Below, piece after piece: positions 49,876 to 64,000 of a stretch of DNA of 64,000 nucleotides (its first letter is position 1; every line of letters begins with the position of its first letter). The position numbers and the translations under genes were made by a program. This DNA comes from Cellulomonas timonensis (lineage in GTDB: Bacteria; Actinomycetota; Actinomycetes; Actinomycetales; Cellulomonadaceae). The notes beneath the pieces are model-generated. The model was not told where the DNA came from. It did not search any database and worked only from the letters and a program-made list of their open reading frames with translations. The stretch lies in NCBI RefSeq assembly GCF_900046455.1, contig NZ_FCOT01000013.1:434001-498000 (forward strand). Direction: 5' to 3'.

Positions 49876-51651
49876 GTGAAGTCTTCGACACGCACACCCA
49901 GGTCACGCACCGGAAGGCTGACGAGCGCGCTGCTCGCCTCAGCCCTCCTGTTCGGAGTCACAGCAGTCGGCTCCCTCCCGGCATCTGCTGCGGTGGACGA
50001 TCCAGCGGCATCACCTACTCCGGATCCCGGGGCGGGCACCGACGATCTGGCCACCGACGACCCCACCACCGAGGCGCCTGACGACGACGCGCTGGTGACA
50101 CCGTTCCGGCTCCCGGGCTTCCCGGCGCCGACCATCCACAGCCAACAGGCCTACGACCCCGAGTCCGACTTCACCTCGAAGTGGACGCGTGCGGATGCCC
50201 TGCAGATTCGCGCCTTCTCGGATCCGGCGGCGGCGGCGGGGGAGAACTCACTGCCCACCGAGTACACGATGCCGGACATCCCGCAGGACTTCCCGATCAT
50301 GACAGACCAGAACGGGGAGCAGATCTGGGTGTGGGACACCTGGACCCTCACCGACGCCGAGTCGGACCAGCTCAGCTTCAAGGGCTGGGAGGTCATCTTC
50401 TCCCTCACAGCCGACCCGAACGCGGGGTACACGTTCGACGACCGCCACACCCATGCCCGGCTGGGCTTCTTCTACCGCAAGGCCGGTATTCCGGCGGATG
50501 AGCGGCCGGAGAACGGCGGCTGGATCTACGGCGGCCACGTCTTCCCAGACGGCGCCGCCGGGGCGATCTTCGAGGATCAGTCGTTCTCGACGGTCACCGA
50601 GTGGTCGGGGTCGACGCGCATCATGACGGGCAACAAGCTGCGGATCTTCTACACCGCAGTGGCCTTCTACCGCGACGCGAACGACCAGGACATCAAGCCG
50701 GCGGACCCGCGCATCGTCCAGACGGAGGCGCGGATCTTCGCGGACGAGGACGGCGTCTGGCTCACCGGCGCACGCGTCCAGCATCAGCTCCTCGTGCCGG
50801 ACGGCACGTTCTACCAGACGCGGGAGCAGAATCCGTTCGTCAACTTCCGTGACCCGTTCACCTTCGAGGACGCGGCCAACCCCGGCCAGACGTTCATGGT
50901 CTTCGAGGGCAACACAGGCGGTGAGCGCGGCGCCCTGCCGTGCACCGAGGCCGACCTGGGGTATCGACCGGGCGACCCGTACGCCGAGGATCCGGCGACG
51001 GTGACGGCATCAGGCGCCAACTTCCAGATGGCCAACGTGGGAATGGCCACCGCGGACAACCTGGCGCTCACTGAGTGGCACTTCCTGCCCCCGATCCTCT
51101 CGGCGAACTGCGTCAACGACCAGACCGAGAGACCGCAGATCTACCAGGCCAACGGCAAGTACTACCTGTTCACCATCAGCCACCGGAGCACGTACGCCCG
51201 TGGGCCAGGGGTGGACTCCACCGACCCGCGGTTCTGGTACATGGACGGGCCAGACGGCGTCTACGGCTTCGTGGGCGACGGCATCAGGTCCGATTTCCAG
51301 CCGATCAACGAGAGCAGTGGGCTTGCCCTGGGCAACTCGACGAATCTCAACTACCCCGTCGGCACCCCAGCGCTTCCCGCCGAGGGCCAGACGGGGAACG
51401 CGTTCCAGTCGTACTCGCACTACGTGATGCCCGGAGGACTGGTTGAGTCGTTCATCGACGCGATCGGCAACCCGGACGTGCGGCGAGGCGGCACGCTTGC
51501 CCCAACGGTCCGGCTGCAGATCGCCGGCACCAGCGCCGTCGTCGACCGCTCCTACGGGAACGGTGGGCTCGGAGGCTACGGCGACATCCCGGCGAACAGG
51601 GAGCAGGACGTGCCCTCGACGCCGAACCCGCGTCCGACGCCCTTCCCCTAA
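49876..51651 (+). CDS. Secreted levansucrase (GH68)
   Basis: Makes levan from sucrose or hydrolyses sucrose. The 591-residue protein has a signal peptide ending near residue 38 (LPASA) and an Asp/Thr/Pro-rich linker to about 75. The GH68 five-bladed domain keeps all three catalytic residues: nucleophile Asp154 in WVWDTW, transition-state Asp326 in FRDP and acid/base Glu418 in QTERPQ. RHTHARLGFFYRKAGIP and SYSHYVMPGGLVESFID are family blocks. It has no cell-wall anchor, so the enzyme is likely released. It starts at a GTG. The GH32 gene follows after a terminator. Confidence 0.95.
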   Translation: MKSSTRTPRSRTGRLTSALLASALLFGVTAVGSLPASAAVDDPAASPTPDPGAGTDDLATDDPTTEAPDDDALVTPFRLPGFPAPTIHSQQAYDPESDFTSKWTRADALQIRAFSDPAAAAGENSLPTEYTMPDIPQDFPIMTDQNGEQIWVWDTWTLTDAESDQLSFKGWEVIFSLTADPNAGYTFDDRHTHARLGFFYRKAGIPADERPENGGWIYGGHVFPDGAAGAIFEDQSFSTVTEWSGSTRIMTGNKLRIFYTAVAFYRDANDQDIKPADPRIVQTEARIFADEDGVWLTGARVQHQLLVPDGTFYQTREQNPFVNFRDPFTFEDAANPGQTFMVFEGNTGGERGALPCTEADLGYRPGDPYAEDPATVTASGANFQMANVGMATADNLALTEWHFLPPILSANCVNDQTERPQIYQANGKYYLFTISHRSTYARGPGVDSTDPRFWYMDGPDGVYGFVGDGIRSDFQPINESSGLALGNSTNLNYPVGTPALPAEGQTGNAFQSYSHYVMPGGLVESFIDAIGNPDVRRGGTLAPTVRLQIAGTSAVVDRSYGNGGLGGYGDIPANREQDVPSTPNPRPTPFP

Positions 51652-51674
51652 GGGCGACGTCAGGCGATAGCAGG

Positions 51675-51706
51675 GCTGGGCGGCCCGTCTCATCGGGCCG
51701 CCCAGC
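51675..51706 (+). terminator. Terminator between levansucrase and GH32 genes
   Basis: Perfect 13-bp stem GCTGGGCGGCCCG / CGGGCCGCCCAGC (51675-51687 and 51694-51706) with a 6-base TCTCAT loop. It lies 24 bases past the levansucrase stop and 26 before the next start, so the GH32 gene may depend on readthrough. Confidence 0.85.
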
Positions 51707-51731
51707 TGGTGCGCAGGAGGAGGTCCGAGAG

Positions 51732-53330
51732 TTGGCACGAGGCGTGGTGCGGGTGGCGGCCGCCCTGGTGGCGACCACGTTGCTCGCGGTGGCCTGCACC
51801 AGTCAGGGACCTGTGCCCATCCGGCCCTCCCGGCCTACCCCATCCCCGGTGACCGCCGCCGCGCCCGACGTCGGGGCGTACTCCGAGCCGTGGCGGCCCC
51901 AGTTCCACTACAGCCCGCTGAAGGGGCGCATGGCGGACCCGAACGGGCTGGTGTGGTTCGCGGGGGAGTGGCACCTGTTCCACCAGCAGGACGGCACATG
52001 GGCGCATGCGGTCAGCACGGACCTGGTCCACTGGGAGCCTTTGCCGACAGCACTCGACCACGACCGGCTCGGCCAGGCCCTCTCCGGGAGCGTGGTCGTG
52101 GACGGCGCGAACACGAGCGGGCTGTTCGACGGCGTCGAGGGCGGCGGGCTCGTCGCGGTCTACACCTCGACCGAGGGCGGCGAGGCGCAGAGCCTGGCCT
52201 ACAGCTCGGATGACGGGCGCACGTGGCAGCGGTACGCGGGCAACCCCGTCATCCCGAACAACGGCCGCGCGGACTTCCGCGACCCCAAGGTGTTCTGGCA
52301 TGAGCCAACCCGCTCATGGGTCATGGTGGTCTCGGTGGGCGGGGCCGTCGAGCTCTTTGCGTCGCCGAACCTGCGCGAGTGGCGCTTCCTGAGCGCGTTC
52401 GGCGACGGGCAGGGGCTGCACGCCGCGGTGTGGGAGTGCCCCGACTTGTTCCCACTGCCGCTCGACGGCGATCCGGCGCGCACCCGCTGGGTGTTGACCG
52501 TCAGTGTGGGCGACAACGCCGAGACGAACGGGTCGACCGCCCAGTACTTCGTGGGGGCGTTCGACGGCACGGCATTCACCCGCGACCCCGCCACCCCTCC
52601 TTCGACGGTGCAGGTCACAGACGTGGGACAGGACTTCTATGCGGCGCAGACGTTTGAGCACGCGCCGGGCGGGCGACGGATCTGGATGGGGTGGATGGGG
52701 AACTGGCGCTACCCGTACTCAGCGCCGACGGCGCCCTGGCTGAACGCCATGAGCATCCCGCGCGAGCTGTCCCTGCGGACGATCGCGGGCCGCGCCACGC
52801 TGGCCCAAGCGCCCGTGGCCGAGCTCACCGAACTGCGCGAACGCGCCGTGACGATCGAGGGGTTGGCCGTGGAGGGCGACGTCCCCGTGGACGTCACGAG
52901 CACGACCTTCGAGTTCATCGCTGAGATCGACGTTGGGGACGCGGACGAGGTCGGGCTGCGCGTCCGCGAGCGGCCGGCAGGCCGCGGGGCGCTCGCCGAG
53001 GCGACGGCCATGGGGGTGGACCTGCGCTCGGGGACGTTCTTCTTGGACCGCACCGAGGGCGGGCTCGCGACGATCCGGGCCCGGGACGGCTCGGACTTCG
53101 ACTTCGCGCTGCGCCGGACGGCGGCGTACTCCCCGCCCGACGGTGTGGTCCGGCTCCACGGGTTCGTGGACGAGTCCTCGGTGGAGGTGTTCGTCGACGA
53201 CGGCGCGCTGACCGGCACGCTTCTCACGTTCCCGTCGGCCGGCGCGGACCGGCTGTCGGTCTACGCGAACGGGGGGACGGCGACTCTGCGCTCGCTCACG
53301 GTGTTCCCGCTGCGCTCTATCTGGCGTTGA
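51732..53330 (+). CDS. GH32 beta-fructosidase lipoprotein (levanase/levan-biosidase type)
   Basis: A 532-residue hydrolase of fructans or sucrose. It begins at TTG with an excellent ribosome binding site (AGGAGGAGG, 8 bases before). The N-terminus ALVATTLLAVAC looks like a lipoprotein signal with Cys about residue 22, though the lipobox AVAC is not ideal. The GH32 catalytic residues are Asp69 in RMADPNG, Asp184 in FRDPKVF and Glu235 in WECPDLF. A C-terminal beta-sandwich follows (VRLHGFVDESSVEVFVDDG). Paired with the levansucrase it would make and then use levan. Its last 14 bases overlap the convergent regulator gene. Confidence 0.93.
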   Translation: MARGVVRVAAALVATTLLAVACTSQGPVPIRPSRPTPSPVTAAAPDVGAYSEPWRPQFHYSPLKGRMADPNGLVWFAGEWHLFHQQDGTWAHAVSTDLVHWEPLPTALDHDRLGQALSGSVVVDGANTSGLFDGVEGGGLVAVYTSTEGGEAQSLAYSSDDGRTWQRYAGNPVIPNNGRADFRDPKVFWHEPTRSWVMVVSVGGAVELFASPNLREWRFLSAFGDGQGLHAAVWECPDLFPLPLDGDPARTRWVLTVSVGDNAETNGSTAQYFVGAFDGTAFTRDPATPPSTVQVTDVGQDFYAAQTFEHAPGGRRIWMGWMGNWRYPYSAPTAPWLNAMSIPRELSLRTIAGRATLAQAPVAELTELRERAVTIEGLAVEGDVPVDVTSTTFEFIAEIDVGDADEVGLRVRERPAGRGALAEATAMGVDLRSGTFFLDRTEGGLATIRARDGSDFDFALRRTAAYSPPDGVVRLHGFVDESSVEVFVDDGALTGTLLTFPSAGADRLSVYANGGTATLRSLTVFPLRSIWR

Positions 53331-54090
53331 CCGCTGCCAGGGACGGGCCTGGCGCGTCGGCCGTCAGGCGCAACGCGCAATGCTGCGGCCCCACGAACGG
53401 CTCGAGGGCCTGCGCGCGCACGGGACCGCCGACCTGCTCCAGCACGCCCTGTGCGAGCCCGAGGTGCACGCTGCACACGACCTCGGGCCGGGACCGCGCG
53501 AGGCTGAGGAAAGGGCATCGCCACAGGTCGAACGTGAGCGTCTCGGGGTCGAGCACGGGGTCGAAGCCCATCCGGTCCAGGTGTGCGTCGAGCGCGAGGA
53601 TTTGCCGGTCGCGGGGGTCGCGGGGGTCGCAGGCCGCGGAGTGCCCGGGCGGCGGGCTGCTGTCGACCAACCTCCGGCCGACGCTGGCGCCGTGCTGCTG
53701 TGCGGAGTCCGCGACGTCGTCGGTCGCGGCGCCGTAGCCGTCCAGCAGCGCGCGGACCAGCGCGGCCTGTGCGATCGAGTCCTCGAGCCGTCGCGTGGCG
53801 AGGGGATCCTCGTGCACGTCGCGCGCGGTGGTGGAGCGGTAGCGCATCCGAGGGCGGCCGCGCCCGTCCGGAGTGCCGCGCTCACGGTGGACGTACCCCT
53901 CGGCGATGAGCCGCTGCAGGTGCTCACGGGTGGTGTTCTCGTGCAGGCCGGTGGCCGTGGCCAGCTCGCCGACGGTGGACGGGCCGTTGCGCTGGAGCGC
54001 GTCGAGGAGCTCGACCCGTCGGCCGGAGGCGAGGACTGCGCGCGGGCGCCGCTCCAGGGGGTCCGTGCTCGTCGTCTCGTCCATGCGCAT
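53317..54090 (-). CDS. Winged-helix regulator with possible Fe-S-binding cysteines
   Basis: A 257-residue protein of the ArsR/DeoR-like COG2345 type. The N-terminal winged helix is STVGELATATGLHENTTREH, LQRLIAEGYVHRERG. The C-terminal domain has Cys192 (RCPF), Cys206 with His209 (VVCSVH) and Cys238 (QHCALRL), the same pattern as SufR-like regulators that bind an iron-sulfur cluster; Cys154 is an additional candidate. The ATG at 54090 has AGGAG 7 bases before it. It is divergent from the membrane protein-NirK operon, and the 100-base gap between them holds a perfect palindrome, so control of NirK in response to NO or nitrite is the natural hypothesis. Confidence 0.82.
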   Translation of the reverse strand: MRMDETTSTDPLERRPRAVLASGRRVELLDALQRNGPSTVGELATATGLHENTTREHLQRLIAEGYVHRERGTPDGRGRPRMRYRSTTARDVHEDPLATRRLEDSIAQAALVRALLDGYGAATDDVADSAQQHGASVGRRLVDSSPPPGHSAACDPRDPRDRQILALDAHLDRMGFDPVLDPETLTFDLWRCPFLSLARSRPEVVCSVHLGLAQGVLEQVGGPVRAQALEPFVGPQHCALRLTADAPGPSLAAVNAR

Positions 54091-54141
54091 CCCCTCACTC
54101 CTGCTGCACCGCAGCCTGCGTCGACATCGGCGCCGTGCCCA

Positions 54142-54155
54142 GGGACGTACGTCCC
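54142..54155. promoter_or_regulatory. Perfect palindrome between the regulator and the nirK operon
   Basis: GGGACGTACGTCCC, 14 bases, perfect dyad, 52 bases from the regulator start and 36 from the first nirK-operon gene. Position and symmetry suit an operator for a dimeric regulator controlling both directions. Confidence 0.6.
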
Positions 54156-54190
54156 GTGGACAGCCTGCCCCGAAATACCACGATGATCCC

Positions 54191-55366
54191 GTGGAAAATC
54201 GACGCGTCGCCCCGCGCTCCGCCTTCCTGCTGCCTGCGGGGGTCGCGATGCTCGCGGGCCTCGACGGCGCCCTGCTGCTCCTCGGCCTGCCCGCGCCCGT
54301 GGACCTGCAGCGGCTGCCCGAGGTGCACGGGCCGGTCATGGTGCTCGGGTTCGTCGGCACTGTGGTCGCGCTGGAGCGCGCCGTCGCGGTGGGCCGGCGG
54401 CCCGGCTTCGCGGCGCCGCTCCTGCTCGGCGCCGGCGGCCTCGCGCTGATCTCACCCCTGCCACGCGTCGTGGGGCAGTGGGGCCTGCTCCTCGGGGCCC
54501 TCGCCCTCGGCTGGCTCTACACCCGGGTGTGGCGACGGCAGCCCGCCACGGCAGTCGCCGTGCAGGCCACCGGGGCCGCGCTCGCGGTGGCGGCCGCCGC
54601 GCTGTGGGCGAGCGGGGTCTCCATCCCGCACCTCGCGCCGTGCCTGGCGGGCTTCCTGGTCCTGACGATCGCCGGGGAGCGCCTCGAGCTCCTCCGGGTG
54701 GCGGCCCCGCCGCGCGGGGTCGAGGACGCCGTGCTGGTGCTGGCACTCGGGTGGTGCGCCGCAGCGGTCCTCGCGCTGCTGTGGCCAGCTGTCGGCTATC
54801 CGGTGCTCGGCGCGGTGCTGCTGCTCCTCGTCGGCGTCCTCATGCGTCACGACGTCGCCCGCCGCACCGTCCACTCGACAGGGCTGCCGCGGTTCATGGC
54901 GGTGGCGATGCTCAGCGGGTACCTGTGGCTCGCCGTCGCGGGAGGGGTGTGGCTCGCCGCCGGGCCGGTGCTCTCCGGGACGGGGTACGACGCCGTGCTG
55001 CACAGCGTGTTCCTCGGCTTCGTGATGTCGATGATCATGGCCCGCGCCCCGGTGATCCTCCCCGCCGTCGTGCGCCGCCCGCTGCCGTACCACCCAGTGA
55101 TGCTCGCGCCGCTCGCGCTGCTGCATGTGAGCCTGGCCGTGCGGGTGCTGATCGGCGACGCCCACGACGTGCCCGTCGCGGTGCAGATCGGCGGGGTCGG
55201 CAACATCGTCGCGCGGCTGGGATTCCTGGTGGTCGCGGCTGGGTCGGTCGTCCGTGCGGGCCGCTGCGGTCCCGACAGGCCCGCCCGGCCGCGCGATCCT
55301 GATCCGGCGCTCACGCGACCCGCCGGGCCGACAGTGGTGGCGGGCACGATCGGACTGCGGCCGTGA
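54191..55366 (+). CDS. Polytopic membrane protein, NnrS-like (first gene of nirK operon)
   Basis: A 391-residue protein with roughly ten to twelve hydrophobic helices. It resembles NnrS, a heme- and copper-containing membrane protein linked to NO resistance, in EVHGPVMVLGFVGTVVALER and LHSVFLGFVMSMIMARAPVI, each with a conserved His. The match is distant, so the name is tentative. The GTG at 54191 is chosen because it is the only in-frame start close to the hydrophobic region; no strong ribosome binding site is visible. GTGA overlap couples it to the next gene. Confidence 0.65.
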   Translation: MENRRVAPRSAFLLPAGVAMLAGLDGALLLLGLPAPVDLQRLPEVHGPVMVLGFVGTVVALERAVAVGRRPGFAAPLLLGAGGLALISPLPRVVGQWGLLLGALALGWLYTRVWRRQPATAVAVQATGAALAVAAAALWASGVSIPHLAPCLAGFLVLTIAGERLELLRVAAPPRGVEDAVLVLALGWCAAAVLALLWPAVGYPVLGAVLLLLVGVLMRHDVARRTVHSTGLPRFMAVAMLSGYLWLAVAGGVWLAAGPVLSGTGYDAVLHSVFLGFVMSMIMARAPVILPAVVRRPLPYHPVMLAPLALLHVSLAVRVLIGDAHDVPVAVQIGGVGNIVARLGFLVVAAGSVVRAGRCGPDRPARPRDPDPALTRPAGPTVVAGTIGLRP

Positions 55367-56628
55367 ACCGCGCGGCATGGCACCTGCGCGCCAATGTCGT
55401 CGTCCTGGCCTGGCTGGCCGCGGCGGCGCTCGCGACTGTGGTGCACCGCGAGATCGCGGGTTCCGGCTGGCTCATGGTCCACCTGCTGCTGCTGGGCGGC
55501 GCCAGCACCGCGATCCTCATCTGGAGCCAGCACTTCGCCGATACGCTGCTGCGCCACCCGGCGAGCCGGCGTGCGCTGCTGGCACGCCTGGCCCTGCACA
55601 ACGCCGGGGCCGTGGCCGTGGTGGTCGGGGTCCAGGTCGTCAGCACCCCGCTGGTCGTCGTCGGCGGCGCCGCCGTGGCGGGCGCGGCCGTGCACCAGGT
55701 GGTCGGCATCGTGCGGCAGCGCGGCCACGCCCTGCCCGCGCGCTTCGCGCACCTCGTGCGCTACTACCTGGCGGCCGCGGTGTTCCTGGTCCCGGGCGTG
55801 TCCTGCGGTGTCGTGATGGCGCGCTTCCCCGTCGACCCGGAGCCGCATGCGCGGCTGTCCGTCGCGCACCCCGCCCTCACGCTCTTCGGCTGGGTCGGGC
55901 CCACGGTCGCGGGCACGCTCGTCGTCCTGTGGCCGACGGTGCTGCACGCGCGCATCCCCCCCGCTGCCGCGGCCGCCGCCCGGCGCGCGTTCCCCGTCCT
56001 CGTGGGCGGTGTGGTCGTCCTGACGGCCGGGCCCGCCTCCGGCAGCAGGGTGCTCGTGGCGGTGGGGGCGGCAGTCGTCGTGGCGGGGATCGCCATGCTC
56101 GGCCGCTTCGTGGTCGCCCAGGCGCGGTCCTCGGCGCCCCGGACCTTCTCGGCCTGGAGCGTGGCCGCCGCGCTGCTCTGGTGGACCGGCACGACAGCGA
56201 CGCTGGGGCTGCGGGTCGCCCTCGCCCCGGACTGGGAGGCGGCAGCCGCCGCGCTCGTCGAGCTGGTGCCCGCGTTCGTCGTCGGGTTCGTCGCCCAGGT
56301 GCTGGTCGGGTCCATGTCCCACCTGCTGCCCGTTGTGCTCGGCGGCGGCCCCGCCGTCCAGCGGCGCACCTCGGCGGCGCTCGACCGGGGCGGCGCCGCC
56401 CGGGTCGTGCTGCTCAACGGCGCGCTGCTGCTCTACGTCGCGCCGGTGCCCAGCGCGGTGCGGGTGGTCACCTCCCTCGTCGGTCTCGGCGCCCTCGTCG
56501 CCTTCCTCGTGCTGGCAGTCGTCGCCGTGCTTCAGTCCCGCCGCCCTGCCCCCGCAGCGACAACCCCCGCGCCGGCGGCTGCAGAAGGGGCGCAGCGTGA
56601 GGCGGCGTCAGAGGTGTATAAGGTATAA
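55363..56628 (+). CDS. Second polytopic membrane protein of the nirK operon
   Basis: A 421-residue protein with about ten to twelve helices, distantly like NnrS or the membrane part fused to some actinobacterial NirK proteins. GWLMVHLLLLGGASTAILIW and VGSMSHLLPVVLGGGPAVQR contain candidate heme/metal His residues, with more in WSQHFADTLLRHPA. It starts with GTG overlapping the preceding stop. Its TAA stop (56626-56628) is followed in the same frame by open sequence that runs into nirK, see the separate note. Possible role: quinol-to-copper electron transfer or NO handling. Confidence 0.65.
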   Translation: MNRAAWHLRANVVVLAWLAAAALATVVHREIAGSGWLMVHLLLLGGASTAILIWSQHFADTLLRHPASRRALLARLALHNAGAVAVVVGVQVVSTPLVVVGGAAVAGAAVHQVVGIVRQRGHALPARFAHLVRYYLAAAVFLVPGVSCGVVMARFPVDPEPHARLSVAHPALTLFGWVGPTVAGTLVVLWPTVLHARIPPAAAAAARRAFPVLVGGVVVLTAGPASGSRVLVAVGAAVVVAGIAMLGRFVVAQARSSAPRTFSAWSVAAALLWWTGTTATLGLRVALAPDWEAAAAALVELVPAFVVGFVAQVLVGSMSHLLPVVLGGGPAVQRRTSAALDRGGAARVVLLNGALLLYVAPVPSAVRVVTSLVGLGALVAFLVLAVVAVLQSRRPAPAATTPAPAAAEGAQREAASEVYKV

Positions 56629-56630
56629 GG
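56617..56630 (+). repeat. Tandem TATAAGG duplication at the membrane protein/nirK junction
   Basis: TATAAGG occurs twice back to back, an AT-rich spot in GC-rich DNA, and the second copy supplies the TAA stop of the membrane protein. It also resembles a -10 box, so a nirK promoter here is possible. Confidence 0.6.
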
Positions 56631-56697
56631 GACAGCGGGTGGGCCGCGGCCCGACCCGCTGCAGCCCACCCGCCACCGGGGAGGCGCCGCAGCCGCG

Positions 56698-58080
56698 GTG
56701 GGCGGCCTGCTCCTCGCCGTGGTCGTCGGCGTCGCGATGGACCCGGTCGCGGCCGGCCTGACGGACGCCGCCTCCTCATCGGCGGGATCGTCGGTCGTCG
56801 CCACGGGCGGCACGACGACAGTGCAGGTCACGGCGCTGGACATGCGCTTCAGCCCGCGGGAGGTCGAGGTGCCCGCCGGCGACCGGCTCGTCATCGAGCT
56901 GACCAACGGCGACTCCGCGGTGCACGACCTGGTGCTGGCGTCCGGCGCCACCTCGGGGCGGCTCGAGCCGGGGGAGACCACCACCGTGGACGCGGGCGTC
57001 GTCGCCTCCGACACCGACGGATGGTGCTCCGTGGCGGGGCACAGGCTCATGGGGATGACCCTGGAGATCGTGGTCACCGGCTCCGCCGCCGAGGCCGCGC
57101 CACCCGCTGTCGAGCACCAGCACGGCCAGGCCTCCGACGCGACGGACGCCGCCGACGACCTCGACCCCGGCGCCGAGCCGGACGCGGACTTCCGGGCCTG
57201 GGACGCCGTCCTGGCCCCTGCGGCCCTCTCCGGCGTCGAGCAGTCCGGCGGAACGGCGCACACGGTCGACGGCGCCACCACCCATCACGTGACGCTGCGT
57301 GCCCAGGAGGCCGAGCGCGAGGTCGCCCCCGGGGTGACGCAGCTCGCCTGGACCTTCAATGGCGCCGTGCCTGGGCCGGTGCTGCGCGGCCGCGTCGGGG
57401 ACACGTTCGTGGTGACCCTCGTCAACGAGGGCGGCATCGGGCACTCGCTCGACTTCCACGCGGGCGCCCTGTCGCCGGACGAGGTGATGCGCACGATCGC
57501 CCCGGGCGAGACGCTCACCTACACGTTCACCGCGAACCGCAGCGGCATCTGGATGTACCACTGCTCCACCGCGCCCATGAGCCTGCACATCGCGAGCGGC
57601 ATGTTCGGCGCCGTCATCATCGACCCGCCCGGCCTTCCGGCGGTGGACCACGAGTACCTGTTGGTCCAGTCCGAGCTGTACCTCGGCCCGCAGGGCGGCG
57701 AGGCGGACGCGGCCAAGGTCGCCGATGGGGACTCCGACCTGGTGGTGTTCAACGGGTACGCGCACCAGTACCGCCACCGCCCCCTCGAGGTGCTGACGGG
57801 CGACAGCGTGCGGATCTGGGTGCTCGACGCCGGGCCGAACCGGGCGAGCGCGTTCCACGTCGTGGGGGGCCAGTTCAGCTCGGTGTACCGGGAGGGCGAC
57901 TGGGTGCTGCGGGACGGCGGCTCAACCGGAACCGGGGGCTCCCAGGTGCTCGCGCTGCAGCCCGCGGAGGGCGGCTTCGTCGAGCTGGACTTCCCGGAGG
58001 CCGGGACCTACCCGTTCGTGACGCATGCGATGAGCGACGCGGAGTCGGGCGCCAGCGGCCGGTTCCTCGTCACGGACTGA
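56698..58080 (+). CDS. nirK: Copper nitrite reductase with extra N-terminal cupredoxin domain
   Basis: Reduces nitrite to NO outside the membrane. From the GTG at 56698 there are 460 residues. A hydrophobic segment (LLLAVVVGVAM) is followed by cupredoxin 1 (about 40-128), which has a full type-1 site: His76, Cys110, His115, Met118 or 120. The NirK core follows: His249 and Cys289-His297-Met302 (type 1), His254, His288 and His387 (type 2), Asp252 as catalytic Asp, and a possible His356 as the second catalytic residue. The extra cupredoxin may feed electrons. The start is uncertain: upstream in-frame codons add basic residues (PTRHRGG) and no stop until the TAA at 56626. Confidence 0.85.
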   Translation: MGGLLLAVVVGVAMDPVAAGLTDAASSSAGSSVVATGGTTTVQVTALDMRFSPREVEVPAGDRLVIELTNGDSAVHDLVLASGATSGRLEPGETTTVDAGVVASDTDGWCSVAGHRLMGMTLEIVVTGSAAEAAPPAVEHQHGQASDATDAADDLDPGAEPDADFRAWDAVLAPAALSGVEQSGGTAHTVDGATTHHVTLRAQEAEREVAPGVTQLAWTFNGAVPGPVLRGRVGDTFVVTLVNEGGIGHSLDFHAGALSPDEVMRTIAPGETLTYTFTANRSGIWMYHCSTAPMSLHIASGMFGAVIIDPPGLPAVDHEYLLVQSELYLGPQGGEADAAKVADGDSDLVVFNGYAHQYRHRPLEVLTGDSVRIWVLDAGPNRASAFHVVGGQFSSVYREGDWVLRDGGSTGTGGSQVLALQPAEGGFVELDFPEAGTYPFVTHAMSDAESGASGRFLVTD

Positions 58081-58084
58081 GCGG

Positions 58085-58834
58085 TCATCGCTGGCGCGAG
58101 CCGGGACGCTCCGAGCGCTCCCACCCCGGGCGCACGGCGCGCGAGCCGATCTGCTCGTCACGGGACCGGTAGACGATGTAGGGCCGGACCACGTAGCCCA
58201 GTGGCGCGGAGAACACGTGCACCAGCCGGGTGAACGGCCACAGCATGAACAGGAGCATCGCGCTGAGCACGTGCAGCTGGAACATCAGCGGCACGTCGGC
58301 CATGAGCGCCGCGTCGGGCCGCAGCGAGAAGAGCCCGCGCACCCACGGCGCGATCGACCCCCGGTAGTCGTACGCGTCGCCGAGGACCTGGAACAGCACC
58401 GTCGCGGCGGTCCCGAACGCGAGCGTCGCCCCGAGGCTGACGTACATGACCTTGTCCATGCGGGTGGTGGCGGTGAACACCCGGGTGACGGTGCGCCTGC
58501 GGTAGACGAGGATGGCCAGCCCGGCCAGGGTCAGCACGGCGGCCGCGGCGCCCATCCACGTCGCGCCCAGGTGGTAGAGGTGCTCGGTCACGCCGATCGC
58601 CTCGAGCCAGCCGCGCGGGATCAGCAGCCCCACCACGTGCCCGGCGATGACCATGAGGATCCCGACGTGGAACATCGGCGAGCCCCAGCGCAGCAGGCGG
58701 TTCTCGTAGACCTGCGACGAGCGCGTGGTCCAGCCGAACTGGTCGTAGCGGTAGCGCCACACGTGCCCGACGACGAAGACGGCGGACGCGACGTAGGGCA
58801 CGACGACCCACCACAGGGTGTCCCAGGTGTTCAC
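58085..58834 (-). CDS. narI: Respiratory nitrate reductase 2, gamma subunit
   Basis: Cytochrome b subunit of the second nitrate reductase, 249 residues, five helices. WRYRYDQFGWTTRSSQVYEN and LLRWGSPMFHVGILMVIAGHVVGL match the first copy closely, as do TTRMDKVMY and LWPFTRLVHVFSAPL. It begins at a GTG overlapping the narJ stop (GTGA) and ends 4 bases from the convergent nirK. Sequence identity to the first NarI is high in the heme regions and lower in loops and at the C-terminus. Confidence 0.96.
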   Translation of the reverse strand: MNTWDTLWWVVVPYVASAVFVVGHVWRYRYDQFGWTTRSSQVYENRLLRWGSPMFHVGILMVIAGHVVGLLIPRGWLEAIGVTEHLYHLGATWMGAAAAVLTLAGLAILVYRRRTVTRVFTATTRMDKVMYVSLGATLAFGTAATVLFQVLGDAYDYRGSIAPWVRGLFSLRPDAALMADVPLMFQLHVLSAMLLFMLWPFTRLVHVFSAPLGYVVRPYIVYRSRDEQIGSRAVRPGWERSERPGSRQR

Positions 58835-59505
58835 GAGAGCGCCTCCACAGGTCGGGTCGTGGGGAAGGGGAGCAGGGGGGTGGACAGCCCGACCATCTCC
58901 TGCGGCGGCCCGGCGGCGACCAGAGCGGTGAACCGCTCGGCGGTCGCGGCGTCCACCTGCGGAAGCGTCAGGCAGACCGCGTCGAGCACGTCGGCGTACG
59001 GGCTGGCCAGGCCGTGCAGGGCCGATCGCAGCACCTCGAGCCCGTCGCGGTGGGCGCCCAGCAGCAGGTCGCTGACCTCGCCGGGCTCGCGCGCGCACAG
59101 CTCGAGCACGGCGGGCAGGTAGTCGGGGAGCTCGTCGGGGGGCGGCTGCCAGCCGCATGCCCGGTACGCCTCGGAGAAGGTCACGAGCGCCATGCCGCGC
59201 CGGCGGGGGTCACCCGCGGCGTAGAACGTCAGGTACAGCGCGCAGCGGCGTTTGAGGTCGAACGTGCGGACGTACTCGGCCTCATGATGGGCGAGGTCCC
59301 ACGTCCCCACCTGGTCGAGGAACGAGGTGAATGCCCGCTCCACCCGGCGGGGCAGGTCGGCGGCCGTCGAGCGGAGCGTCGCGAACCCGTCGCGCAAGCC
59401 GGCCGTCGGGTAGTCGAGCAGCAGGGCGGCCATCATGTGCGCTGCCGCGCGCTGAGTGCCGGAGCACGCGACCGGCGCCAGGAACGGCAGGGCGGTGCGC
59501 GTCAT
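58831..59505 (-). CDS. narJ: Nitrate reductase 2 assembly chaperone
   Basis: A 224-residue TorD/NarJ-family chaperone: MAALLLDYPTAGLRDGFATL, AEYVRTFDLKRRCALYLTFY and GDPRRRGMALVTFSEAYRACG. It lacks the basic N-terminal extension of the first NarJ. ATG overlaps the narH stop. Each operon keeps its own chaperone, which suggests the two reductases are matured separately. Confidence 0.95.
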   Translation of the reverse strand: MTRTALPFLAPVACSGTQRAAAHMMAALLLDYPTAGLRDGFATLRSTAADLPRRVERAFTSFLDQVGTWDLAHHEAEYVRTFDLKRRCALYLTFYAAGDPRRRGMALVTFSEAYRACGWQPPPDELPDYLPAVLELCAREPGEVSDLLLGAHRDGLEVLRSALHGLASPYADVLDAVCLTLPQVDAATAERFTALVAAGPPQEMVGLSTPLLPFPTTRPVEALS

Positions 59506-61193
59506 GACCGCGCCTCGGGTCCCTGGCCGTATCCGGCTTGGTCGGGCGCGGGCGGGAACAGCCCGGGCGGGGCGCCGCCGCCGTCCCAGTTGAGCAGGTT
59601 GACGCGGGCCGGCGCCCCCTGGTCGGCGGGGCTCTCAGCGCGCTGCCGGTCGCGCAGCGCGTGGAACGTCTCGACGGTCGCGCGGACGGGCCGCCCGCTC
59701 GCGGCGCCGAAGGGTCCGGCCGGGCCGCCGCCCATGCCAGGCCCGCCCTCGCCGTCGAGCGAGCACCCGCTGGCGATCTCCTCGAGCGCGCGCGCCCCCT
59801 CGGCGTGCGCGGCCGGGATGACGTAGCGGTCCTCGTATTTCGCGATGGCCAGCAGCCGGTACATCGCCTCGATGGTCGTGGCGTCCATGCCGACGGCCGC
59901 CGCGATGCGCGGGTCCTGCACGACCCCCAGGTTCACGTTGCGCATGTGGGCCCGCATCGCGGCGAGCCGTTGCAGCGACGCGACCACGGGCTCGGTGTCA
60001 CCGGCGGTGAACAGCCCCGCCAGGTACTCGACCGGGATGCGCAGCCGGTCGATCGCGGCGAACAGCGTGGGCGCGTCCTCGCCGTCGGCGCCCGATCCGG
60101 CCACCACGTCGACCACGGGGGACAGCGGGGGGATGTACCAGACCATCGGCAGGGTCCGGTACTCGGGGTGCAGCGGCAGGGCGACCTGGTACTCCGAGAT
60201 CAGCGACCAGATCGGCGACGCCTGGGCAGCCGTGATCCAGTCCTCGGGGATCCCGGCCTCGCGGGCCGCACGGACCACCTCGGGGTCGTGCGGGTCGAGG
60301 AACACCGAGCGCTGGGCGTCCAGCAGCTGGGCAGGGTCCTCGACGCTCGCGGCCTCCAGCACGCGGTCGGCGTCGTACAGCACGAGGCCGAGGTAGCGCA
60401 GGCGGCCGACGCAGGTCTCCGAGCACACCGTGGGCAGCCCGACCTCGAGCCGCGGGTAGCACATGGTGCACTTCTCGGCCTTGCCCGTGGCGTGGTTGAA
60501 GTAGACCTTCTTGTACGGGCACCCGGTCACGCACATCCGCCAGCCGCGGCACGCGTCCTGGTCCACCAGCACGATGCCGTCCTCGGAGCGCTTGTACATC
60601 GCGCCCGAGGGGCATGACGCCACGCAGGACGGGTTGAGGCAGTGCTCGCAGATGCGCGGCAGGTAGAACATGAACGCCGACTCGAACTCGGCCTTGACCT
60701 GCGTGCTCATGGTCGCGAGCACCGGGTCGCCGGCCATCGTCTCGCCCGAGCCGCCGAGGTCGTCATCCCAGTTCGCCGACCAGCGGATCTGCATGTCCTC
60801 ACCGGTCAGCAGCGACTTCGGGCGGGCGACCGGGGTGTGCTCGCCCAGCGGCGCCGACAGCAGCGTGTCGTAGTCGTACGTCCACGGCTCGTAGTAGTCG
60901 TCGATCCCGGGCAGGGTCGGGTTGGAGAAGATGTGCGCGAGCTTGCTGAACCGCCCGCCGGCGCGGAGCTTGAGCCGGCCGCCGCGCGTGCGCACCCATC
61001 CGCCGCGCCACCGGTCTTGGTCCTCATACCGGCGCGGGTAGCCGACGCCCGGGCGGGTCTCGACATTGTTGAACCACGCGTACTCCACGCCCGTGCGGTT
61101 CGTCCACGCCTGTTTGCAGGTCACCGAGCAGGTGTGGCACCCGATGCACTTATCGAGGTTCATCACCATCGACATCTGGGCCATGACGCGCAT
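59502..61193 (-). CDS. narH: Respiratory nitrate reductase 2, beta subunit
   Basis: A 563-residue iron-sulfur subunit with the same four Cys groups as the first copy: CIGCHTCSVTC, CEHCLNPSCVASCP, CRGWRMCVTGCP and CTMCYPR with CSETC. The tail after RVNLLNWDGGGAPPGLFP is shorter than in NarH 1. The ATG overlaps the narG stop, and the first codons belong to the 172-bp near-identical repeat. Confidence 0.97.
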   Translation of the reverse strand: MRVMAQMSMVMNLDKCIGCHTCSVTCKQAWTNRTGVEYAWFNNVETRPGVGYPRRYEDQDRWRGGWVRTRGGRLKLRAGGRFSKLAHIFSNPTLPGIDDYYEPWTYDYDTLLSAPLGEHTPVARPKSLLTGEDMQIRWSANWDDDLGGSGETMAGDPVLATMSTQVKAEFESAFMFYLPRICEHCLNPSCVASCPSGAMYKRSEDGIVLVDQDACRGWRMCVTGCPYKKVYFNHATGKAEKCTMCYPRLEVGLPTVCSETCVGRLRYLGLVLYDADRVLEAASVEDPAQLLDAQRSVFLDPHDPEVVRAAREAGIPEDWITAAQASPIWSLISEYQVALPLHPEYRTLPMVWYIPPLSPVVDVVAGSGADGEDAPTLFAAIDRLRIPVEYLAGLFTAGDTEPVVASLQRLAAMRAHMRNVNLGVVQDPRIAAAVGMDATTIEAMYRLLAIAKYEDRYVIPAAHAEGARALEEIASGCSLDGEGGPGMGGGPAGPFGAASGRPVRATVETFHALRDRQRAESPADQGAPARVNLLNWDGGGAPPGLFPPAPDQAGYGQGPEARS

Positions 61194-61280
61194 CAGTACT
61201 GCACCTCCTGCGAGCGACGGCGGATGACGGTGACCTCGTCACGCTGGTTGCCCGTGGGCCCCAGGTAGTTGAACGCGAAG
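61109..61280. repeat. 172-bp near-identical repeat, copy B (narG/narH junction)
   Basis: Counterpart of 25836-26007, same orientation, 5 differences in 172 bases by eye. Both copies straddle the narG stop/narH start ATGA. Confidence 0.9.
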
Positions 61281-64000
61281 GACAGCTGCGCGTAGCCGCC
61301 GATCAGATGGCTCGGCTTGAGCAGCACCCGCGTGAGGGAGTTGTGGATGCCGCCGCGCAGCCCTGACGTCTCCGACCGCGGCACATCCACGGTGCGGTCC
61401 TTGGCGTGGTACATGTACACCGTCCCGGCCGGCATCCGGTGGGAGACGATCGCGCGGGCCACGACGACGCCGTTGCGGTTGTACGCCTCGATCCACTCGT
61501 TGTCCCGCACCCCGATGGTCGTGGCGTCCTGCGGGGACATCCAGATGGTCGGGCCGCCCCGGGACAGCGACAGCATGAAGAGGTTGTCCTGGTACTCCGA
61601 GTGGATCGACCACTTGGAGTGCGGGGTCAGGTACCGCACGGCCACCTCCGCCGTCCCCTCGGAGCCGGGCGCCCCGCTGGGGTCGGTGGACCCGGGCCGC
61701 GCGTCGCCGAACAACCGGTGCAGGTCGAGCGGCGGGCGGTAGACGGGCAGGTTCTCGCCGAGCTCGGTCATCCAGTCGTGGTCGAGGTAGAAGTGCTGGC
61801 GGCCGGTGAGCGTGTGCCAGGGCTTGAGGTGCTCGACGTTGATGGTGAACGGCGAGTACCGGCGGCCGCCGTGCTCGGAGCCCGACCACTCGGGCGAGGT
61901 GATCACGGGCACCGGGCGCGCCTGCACGTCGGCGAACCGGATCCGCTCGCCCTCATGGTCACGGGCGAGGGAGGCCAGCTCGGTGCCGGTGCGCCTCTCC
62001 ATCTGCTCGAAGCCCTGGACCGCGAGGCGGCCGTTCGTGGTGCCGGACAGCGCCAGGATCGTCTCGCACACGTGCTGCGCGGTCGTCAGGCGTGGCCGCC
62101 CCGCCGTCGGGCCCGTGGTGACCGTCCCGTTGAGCCGCCCGAGCGCCTCGACCTCCGGCTCCGGCGAGTACGTGACGCCCTTCGTCACCATCCCCGCCTT
62201 GGCGGTCAGCGGGCCGAGCGCCTCCCACCGGTCGGCGATGGTCGTGTAGTCGCGCTCCACGACGACGAGCTTGGGCATCGTGACGCCCGGCACCAGCTCG
62301 GCCTGCTCGGGCACCAGGCCGTAGGGAGTGCTGAGCTCGTCGGGGGTGTCGTGCAGCAGCGGCGCCGCCACGAGGTCCTCGCGCACGCCGAGATGCTCCG
62401 CTCCGAGCCGCTGCACCTCGCGCGCGAGCGTGGCGAACGTGTCGAAGTCGGTGCGGGTCTGCCACGGCGGCGCGATCGCGGGGTTGAACGAGTGCACGAA
62501 CGGGTGCATGTCGGTGGTCGACAGGTCGTGCTTCTCGTACCAGGTGGCGGTCGGCAGCACGACGTCGCTGAACAGCGTGGTGGACGTCATCCGGAAGTCG
62601 CTCGTGACGAGCAGGTCGAGCTTCCCGCGCGGCGCCTCGTCATGCCACTCCATGCTCACGGGGCGGCGTCCGGGCAAGGACTCCTCGGCCCGCACCGCGT
62701 TGTCGGTGCCCAGCAGGTGCCGCAGGAAGTACTCGTTGCCCTTGCCGGACGAGCCGAGCAGGTTCGCCCGCCACACCGTCAGCACCCGGGGGAAGTTCGC
62801 GGGGTCGTCGGGGTCCTCGCACGCGAACCGCAGCCGCCCGGCCTCGAGCTCGTCCACGACGTGCTGTGCGGGCTCCTTGCCCTGCGCGCGCGCCTCGTCG
62901 ACGAGGTCGAGCGGGTTGCGGTTGAACGTGGGGTAGGAGGGCATCCACCCGCGTCGCGCCGACTCCACGAGGCAGTCGGCGGTGGTGCGCCCGGCGAACG
63001 CGCCCTCGGCGAGCGGGCTGGCCAGCGCGTCGGCGGGCAGCCCGTCGTAGCGCCACTGGTCCGTCGCGAGGTACCAGAACGCCGTGCTGATCATGTGGCG
63101 CGGCGGGCGTGACCAGTCCAGGCCGTTGGCGTACTGCGCCCACCCGGTGACGGGCCGGCACTTCTCCTGCCCGACGTAGTGCGCCCAGCCGCCGCCGTTG
63201 ACGCCCTGGCACCCGGTCATCGTCACCAGGGCGAGGAACGCGCGGTAGATCGTGTCGGAGTGGAACCAGTGGTTGGTCCCGGCGCCCATGAGGATCATCG
63301 AGCGCCCGCCCGACGCCTCGGCGTTCGCGGCGAACTCCCGTCCGATCCGCTCCGCCGTCGCGGCGGGCACCGAGGTGATCTCCTCCTGCCACGCGGGCGT
63401 GCCGGGGCTGGCCGGGTCGTCGTAGCCCGTGGGCCAATCGCCCGGCAGCCCCTCGCGCCCCACGCCGTACTGCGCGAGCATCAGATCGAAGACCGTGGTG
63501 ACGAGATGGTCGCCGATCCGCCGCACGGGCACGCCGCGCCGCACGATCCCGGCGCCGCCCTGGTGCTCGTCGCCGGGCTGCGGCGCCACGTCGAAGCGCG
63601 GCAGGTCGATGGCGACGGCGGCGCCGTCCCAGTCGGCCGCGTCGGCCACCGACAGCACGGGGTCGATGTCCCCGAGGTCGAGGTTCCACCGCCCCGCCTG
63701 CGCGGGGTCGAACCGGTGCCCGAGCGTCCCCGGCGGGACCACGGCCTCGCCCGACGCGTCCAGGACGACCGTCTGGAACGCCGCGTCGCGGTCCGCGCTG
63801 GGGGTGGGGAGCAGGTCGCCCGTGAGGAACTTGTCCGGCACCCAGCCGTCCTCGCGCGCCTTGAGCCGCACCAGGTGCGGGGCGTCGGTGAACTGCGTCA
63901 TGTACGACGCGAACTGCTCGGTGCGGCGGTCGACCAAGAACTCGCGCAGGATGACGTGCCCCATCGCGATCGCCAGCGCGCCGTCGGTGCCGGGGTGCGG
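61193..64000 (-). CDS. narG: Respiratory nitrate reductase 2, alpha subunit, 5'-truncated by window edge
   Basis: The C-terminal 935 residues of a second NarG; the frame stays open to base 64000 (PHPGTDGALAIAMGHVIL), so about 300 residues including the FS0 cluster and the Mo ligand lie outside. GTNHWFHSDTIYRAFLAL, LSRGGPTIWMSPQDA and SHLIGGYAQLSFAFNYLGPT agree with NarG. Differences from NarG 1 include an Asp/Gly/Pro-rich insert after RLFGDARPG. Both copies appear intact, so this is unlikely to be a decaying duplicate. Confidence 0.96.
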   Translation of the reverse strand, partial: PHPGTDGALAIAMGHVILREFLVDRRTEQFASYMTQFTDAPHLVRLKAREDGWVPDKFLTGDLLPTPSADRDAAFQTVVLDASGEAVVPPGTLGHRFDPAQAGRWNLDLGDIDPVLSVADAADWDGAAVAIDLPRFDVAPQPGDEHQGGAGIVRRGVPVRRIGDHLVTTVFDLMLAQYGVGREGLPGDWPTGYDDPASPGTPAWQEEITSVPAATAERIGREFAANAEASGGRSMILMGAGTNHWFHSDTIYRAFLALVTMTGCQGVNGGGWAHYVGQEKCRPVTGWAQYANGLDWSRPPRHMISTAFWYLATDQWRYDGLPADALASPLAEGAFAGRTTADCLVESARRGWMPSYPTFNRNPLDLVDEARAQGKEPAQHVVDELEAGRLRFACEDPDDPANFPRVLTVWRANLLGSSGKGNEYFLRHLLGTDNAVRAEESLPGRRPVSMEWHDEAPRGKLDLLVTSDFRMTSTTLFSDVVLPTATWYEKHDLSTTDMHPFVHSFNPAIAPPWQTRTDFDTFATLAREVQRLGAEHLGVREDLVAAPLLHDTPDELSTPYGLVPEQAELVPGVTMPKLVVVERDYTTIADRWEALGPLTAKAGMVTKGVTYSPEPEVEALGRLNGTVTTGPTAGRPRLTTAQHVCETILALSGTTNGRLAVQGFEQMERRTGTELASLARDHEGERIRFADVQARPVPVITSPEWSGSEHGGRRYSPFTINVEHLKPWHTLTGRQHFYLDHDWMTELGENLPVYRPPLDLHRLFGDARPGSTDPSGAPGSEGTAEVAVRYLTPHSKWSIHSEYQDNLFMLSLSRGGPTIWMSPQDATTIGVRDNEWIEAYNRNGVVVARAIVSHRMPAGTVYMYHAKDRTVDVPRSETSGLRGGIHNSLTRVLLKPSHLIGGYAQLSFAFNYLGPTGNQRDEVTVIRRRSQEVQY

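Follow-up and report, generated by a model that had tools for sequence, protein, structure and literature searches.

This analysis concerns a stretch of 64,000 nucleotides of contig NZ_FCOT01000013.1 of Cellulomonas timonensis, a soil-type actinobacterium (hereafter the window; all coordinates are positions in it), and in particular a unit composed of a divergent regulator gene, a palindrome, two membrane modules termed memA and memB, and the copper nitrite reductase NirK. On balance, we regard it as probable that this unit encodes a membrane quinol:nitrite oxidoreductase controlled by hypoxia and nitric oxide (NO), with an electron supply of its own. Most relatives encode a single protein of about 900 residues, consisting of a 12-helix module, a linker helix, an extra cupredoxin and the two-domain NirK, and this fusion probably lets NirK take electrons straight from the membrane. 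The true second gene of the window is most likely of the same kind, with the memB module, linker helix, cupredoxin and NirK in one protein. The features of the unit and its surroundings are:

53317..54084, minus strand: ArnR-like winged helix-turn-helix regulator of 255 amino acids (MarR/HTH_24 Pfam matches; Cys/His conservation)
54142..54155, no strand: palindrome GGGACGTACGTCCC, DosR/DevR-like box (perfect 14-bp inverted repeat)
54191..55366, plus strand: memA, a 12-helix membrane protein with a predicted fold like heme-copper oxidase subunit I, remote NnrS relative
55363..56576, plus strand: memB module of 12 helices (H40 and H169 invariant); in relatives the linker helix follows
56577..56642, no strand: suspect assembly segment of 66 bp, adapter-like (6 bp here in the sister contig)
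56643..56756, plus strand: linker with transmembrane helix from memB to the cupredoxin (approximate borders)
56800..57080, plus strand: extra N-terminal type-1 copper cupredoxin (PF13473; H, C, H, M ligands complete)
57270..58080, plus strand: two-domain NirK core with type-1 and type-2 copper and catalytic Asp and His
58085..63964, minus strand: convergent narIJHG nitrate reductase genes (named by sequence inspection of the open reading frames alone)

A preliminary description of this DNA had reported the divergent regulator and the perfect 14-bp palindrome, both of which are borne out. It had also reported two coupled membrane proteins; the coupling stands, as the memA and memB genes overlap by 4 bp, and the separateness from NirK does not, since the apparent split very probably arose in assembly (see below).

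NirK and the fused membrane modules

The Pfam matches of the window NirK are a cupredoxin (PF13473) and multicopper-oxidase domains, and the protein has the two-domain NirK fold. Its type-1 (His, Cys, His, Met) and type-2 (three His) copper ligands are complete and the catalytic Asp and His are present, with residue roles as known for NirK. Among 38 fused relatives these ligands are invariant, except for the core type-1 Met (37/38), and the type-1 ligands of the extra cupredoxin (H, C, H, M) are invariant in all 38. The complete extra N-terminal type-1 copper domain proposed earlier is thus confirmed by its ligand set, and at the level of sequence the complete ligands strongly support reduction of nitrite to NO by NirK. 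The window protein reaches 155.7 bits against TIGR02376, the NCBIfam model for copper nitrite reductase, below a cut-off of 296.3 that is a naming threshold and no biochemical definition; we file it as NirK because of its ligands and fold, not because of this score.

NirK proteins of about 900 amino acids from Actinobacteria, with an N-terminal membrane domain of about 400 amino acids, an extra cupredoxin and a NirK core, are already in print (Decleyre et al. 2016, PMC4770552). That paper calls the membrane domain "of unknown function" and describes the Propionibacterium acnes-type NirK, with the same domain order, across Actinobacteria; unlike it, the gene in the window is broken by an adapter-like stretch. 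Within the scope of open-access literature searches, our additions are the predicted fold of memA, the conserved histidines, the partner gene, the 50/50 linkage and the DosR/ArnR-like control. No published fold for the NirK membrane domain was found in an open-access literature search. The best sequence match of the window NirK in the PDB is 2dv6, the three-domain Hyphomicrobium enzyme. The NirK of Hyphomicrobium denitrificans (2dv6, 6tfd, 6tfo) likewise has a type-1 copper cupredoxin N-terminal to the NirK core, but was solved as a protein without a membrane module, unlike the actinobacterial fusion.

Linkage was analysed in 198 genomes of the order, with the NirK core counted at E<1e-90. NirK matches at E<=0.001 occur in 87 genomes and the core in 50, the 37 weaker matches (above E 1e-90, including G016 with 2e-37 and G197 with 2e-24) lying outside the 50. 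All 50 NirK-core genomes contain a membrane module, namely memB in 45 and a memA fused to NirK instead of memB in 5, all of one genus. At E<1e-30, memB is present in 47 genomes, 45 of which also have the NirK core; the two others are G016 (cupredoxin only) and G170, and G040 shows a weak memB match only (2e-4). For the memB relative of G170 (locus L155), neither the surrounding region that was read nor the search of the genome gave a NirK match. Separation of the membrane proteins from nirK in most genomes, which the preliminary description had named as speaking against its proposal, is therefore not what was found. Among the loci with memB and NirK core, not counting the window, 37/44 are in-frame fusions and 7/44 have the two in separate frames. 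Four of the seven genomes of the genus have the NirK core (those of the window, the sister species, G198 and G201), and G198 has a memB fusion. A public collection yielded at least 562 confirmed memB relatives; the best 80 of these, some on contigs shared with the 198-genome sample, comprise 74 fused loci, 2 adjacent and unfused, 2 cut by a contig end, and 2 in which no NirK core was found. Genera among these 80 include Cellulomonas, Cryobacterium, Georgenia, Cellulosimicrobium, Rhodococcus and Mycobacterium. The fusion in most relatives and the co-occurrence support the earlier view of one functional unit.

Of the 31 genomes in the order sample with memA, 30 have the NirK core. Three genomes carry memA away from nirK: G079, where it is on a different contig, G118 and G188. 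At two loci (L160, L161), memA stands beside a regulator of the same family and away from nirK, which suggests a second role for memA.

A Pfam scan of the window memA and memB returned no family. The memA protein is confidently predicted to adopt the fold of subunit I of heme-copper oxidases and NO reductases. It has invariant histidines on helix 2 (H46) and helix 10 (H271), between which one low-spin heme is probably held. Subunit I of these enzymes (cbb3 CcoN, NorB) shares with memA the twelve-helix predicted fold and the histidines on helices 2 and 10. It differs in that the aligned memA relatives have no conserved CuB/FeB histidine on helices 6-7, and in that memA would be paired with a nitrite-reducing cupredoxin partner, with the proposed electron flow reversed. 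In memB, H40 and H169 are invariant (129/129 each), and H169, on helix 6, is the sole conserved histidine on helices 6-7. With no well-conserved histidine there in memA and only one in memB, the usual CuB/FeB site is missing, and for this reason we class neither module among the catalytic oxidases or NO reductases. We infer an oxidase-like fold for memB as well; in a structure search with the fusion model the matches were filled by the NirK domain. A COX1 match (E 1.1e-4) of one among 38 fusion members was dropped, being absent in a scan of 10 memB stretches. Position 285 of memA (codon at 55043) is Arg in the window and His in the other sequences (94/95, sister species included).

NnrS is a polytopic membrane protein with remote sequence similarity to memA and memB, which differ from it in remaining below the Pfam threshold. 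The Pfam scan gave no match of window proteins to NnrS (PF05940), and at E<=1 it matched 5/28 memA members, with a best value of 0.017, below the Pfam cut-off. Searches of 396 genomes of the phylum matched NnrS in 3, with 1 above the cut-off; this single protein served as the comparison NnrS in hhalign, which gave P 2.2e-4 for memA and for memB and P>=0.066 for five of five other polytopic proteins. No NnrS match was found in the C. timonensis genome, in a search whose control queries also matched nowhere. The membrane proteins had earlier been called NnrS-like: remote homology is upheld, and family membership above the cut-off is not. An open-access literature search over titles and abstract starts returned nothing on NnrS sharing a fold with heme-copper oxidases, and we know of no NnrS-NirK fusion.

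Several observations weigh against an oxidase-derived module that feeds NirK. With Foldseek alone, memA had no match at E<=0.001, the best value being 3e-3, and the conserved histidines of memB lie on helices 2 and 6 instead of 2 and 10. The hhalign link between memB and memA is weak and depends on the alignment (P 1.5e-5, and 1.3e-3 with more sequences). Against COX1, the profile of neither module beats those of unrelated membrane proteins (P 0.04-0.08); with single COX1 proteins neither does so either (P 0.022-0.49 versus 0.066-0.82 for decoys), and a PDB chain search with both profiles returned weak matches only. The memA gene is absent from 20/50 NirK-core genomes, and G201, of the same genus as the window, has memA and NirK with no memB within 16 kb. 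Finally, according to PMC4770552, the Hyphomicrobium enzyme has its N-terminal copper too distant from the core for effective transfer, and its mutant exceeds the wild type in activity.

The interruption between memB and NirK

In the assembled window, memB and NirK share one frame and are separated by a single TAA at 56626-56628. The second membrane open reading frame accordingly spans 55363-56628, and the NirK frame, as listed, spans 56698-58080, starting at a GTG inside the linker stretch. Positions 56601-56622 match the Nextera Read-1 adapter in 20/22 bases, 4 bases before the TAA, which itself sits within a match of 11/12 bases to the end of the adapter (56624-56635). In 30 Markov-simulated windows the best 22-base adapter match had 6 to 8 mismatches, versus 2 here. 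In the sister species (G199), contig C28 runs from memB in frame into the NirK leader, with a junction of 6 bp versus 66 bp in the window, and then stops; the NirK-bearing contig C23 begins 12 bases before a 25/27 adapter match. As C28 ends past the junction and NirK is on C23, the sister fusion is likewise not contained within one contig. A second adapter-like stretch, matching 17/19 bases of the Nextera mosaic end, lies on the window contig (L308:7430-7448) at the start of a cydC-like open reading frame, which opens with the translation of this stretch.

From the adapter match beside the stop, the adapter at the contig break of the sister species and the read-through there, we conclude that the split very probably stems from the assembly, and the window counts as a membrane-domain NirK fusion only if this is so. 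We consider it extremely unlikely that memB and NirK are truly separate genes in the source strain following a nonsense event. Such a split would agree with the in-frame TAA of the assembled sequence, with the GGGGAGG ahead of the GTG at 56698, and with the 7/44 loci in different frames, which demonstrate that unfused pairs exist; the sister read-through contig, moreover, ends just past the junction, so that no single-contig fusion is seen there either. It would leave the adapter sequence beside the stop and at the sister contig break, the read-through of the other sister contig and the second adapter-like stretch to be accounted for, and a NirK beginning at 56698 would start within its own transmembrane helix.

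Within 102 bp of the window (55870-55971), memB residues P170, P180, P199 and A203 each reflect a single change to C relative to the sister species. These changes, and R285 of memA, could be base errors. Fused genes of this type can look falsely split in adapter-carrying assemblies.

The regulator and the palindrome

The regulator has MarR/HTH_24 Pfam matches and a winged-helix domain. The pattern C190-x13-C204-x31-C236 and H207 do not vary across 81-82 aligned sequences (not deduplicated), among which the fourth Cys of the window protein is not conserved. Identity with SufR was rejected: TIGR02702 gives 19.2 bits versus a cut-off of 178.8, and the Cys spacing differs. The cysteines of the SufR protein Rv1460 are C203, C216 and C244 (PMC6034842). 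ArnR of Corynebacterium glutamicum has Cys179, 193 and 223 and a conserved His; this [4Fe-4S] protein regulates narKGHJI and hmp and is released from DNA by NO (PMC12343034). It is likewise a winged helix-turn-helix protein with C-x13-C, three Cys, an extra His and a link to nitrate respiration; the second spacing is 31 in the window regulator versus 29 in ArnR (compared by published spacing, not by alignment), and the known targets of ArnR are narKGHJI and hmp, unlike the nirK unit. In its spacing the window regulator thus resembles the NO-sensing ArnR more closely than Rv1460. The SufR-like Cys pattern named in the preliminary description is given up, as three and not four Cys are invariant, the TIGR02702 score is low and the spacing is ArnR-like.

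As the window contains 15 perfect 14-bp palindromes, the one at 54142-54155 is unremarkable when taken alone. Its form GGGAC-N4-GTCCC is conserved among Cellulomonas regions and over-represented in the genome. From 25 divergent pairs, 19 regions within a 900-bp limit were obtained, 2 of these being repeats of the same contig. Of 11 distinct divergent regions from Cellulomonas, that of the window among them, 8 have the strict form and 3 a form with one mismatch; the strict form is absent from all 7 extracted non-Cellulomonas divergent regions and from all 43 co-directional upstream regions. The C. timonensis genome has 16 such sites, the window palindrome being one of them, versus 3 for a reversed control pattern. 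Five sites lie within 200 bp before matches to nuoA, nrdD, nrdI, pntA and cydA; the first four score above the NCBIfam cut-offs, and cydA, with E 5e-92, below. Two further sites precede weaker ricR and VKOR-like matches, and eight others have no gene assignment.

The consensus of the DosR box is given as GGGACTTNNGNCCCT in PMC6448022, and the window palindrome fits 10 of its 12 specified positions. The window contig encodes a GAF-GAF-HisKA_3-HATPase kinase (DevS GAF E 4e-32; best PDB match DevS) and, beside it, a response regulator with DevR as its best PDB match (E 1.5e-49). Because its core resembles the DosR box and a DosS/DosR-like pair is encoded, the palindrome looks like a putative hypoxia/NO box of DosR type, shared with other respiratory genes. 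A DosR-like regulon in Cellulomonas comprising nuoA, cydA, nrdD, nrdI, pntA and the nirK unit is possible. The palindrome had previously been taken as the operator of the divergent regulator, a reading we do not favour because the same form precedes nuoA, cydA, nrdD, nrdI and pntA.

Proposed electron route, alternative readings and significance

The heme content, quinol site, electron direction, memB fold, topology and regulator targets, as we infer them, would combine as follows. NarGHI reduces nitrate to nitrite, and the adjoining narIJHG genes, 4 bases from the end of the NirK frame, are the likely nitrite source; narIJHG was matched close to the unit in 12 of the 80 public loci. Menaquinol oxidation would take place in the membrane part formed by memA and memB, as the fold, the invariant histidines and the fusion suggest, memA acting as partner membrane protein of the memB-NirK fusion. 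Electrons would then pass from heme to the N-terminal cupredoxin and on to the type-1 and type-2 copper of NirK, following the covalent order, and the NirK core, facing outside, would reduce nitrite to NO. In oxidases the flow runs the other way, from cupredoxin to subunit I. The unit would be induced by a DosR-like activator under hypoxia or NO, and further control by NO would come from the ArnR-like [4Fe-4S] regulator. A membrane electron route to the NirK cupredoxin had been proposed before, and it is supported by the fusion, the co-occurrence and the conserved candidate heme ligands. Two genes upstream of the unit (49876-53330) presumably encode relatives of levansucrase and levanase.

The membrane modules might instead be NnrS-like accessories for NO protection or for copper or heme loading that pass no electrons to NirK, which would be reduced by another carrier, such as the c-type heme or copper domains of a bcc-aa3 supercomplex. 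The remote NnrS similarity of both modules speaks for such a role, as do the three genomes with memA apart from nirK, in two of them beside the same-family regulator. The covalent fusion of memB (or, in one genus, memA) to the cupredoxin in most genomes is better explained by electron transfer than by a separate protective function, and we hold the accessory role to be rather unlikely. A further alternative is that the membrane module is itself an NO reductase, in which case the fusion, alone or together with memA, would make nitrous oxide (N2O) from nitrite. The predicted fold of memA is that of NO reductase subunit B, and the only PF00115 match in the genome is a strong COX1 hit; no NorB or qNOR was found by this family, which we take to cover both. 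N2O formation has been reported for Cellulomonas WB94, in which a gene for an NO reductase was not identified; the authors attribute this absence to incompleteness of the assembly, and they also report transcription of Cellulomonas nirK in denitrifying microcosms (PMC6454037). The CuB/FeB histidines, however, are missing in memA, with only the helix-6 His in memB, and other proteins can yield N2O, so that this alternative appears very improbable to us. The boldest form of our own proposal, to which we likewise give very little credence, holds that a heme-copper oxidase has been repurposed as the membrane part, which sends electrons outward to the fused cupredoxin-NirK and also reduces NO to N2O. 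If this were true, one protein pair would make N2O and supply the NO reductase which Cellulomonas seems to be without.

To our knowledge, no route is established by which NirK is reduced in Gram-positive denitrifiers that lack a soluble periplasmic cytochrome c. If the membrane module of the proposed quinol:nitrite oxidoreductase is an oxidase-derived quinol dehydrogenase, this would explain the fusion and provide testable heme ligands, and it would represent an oxidase fold working in reverse with a cupredoxin.

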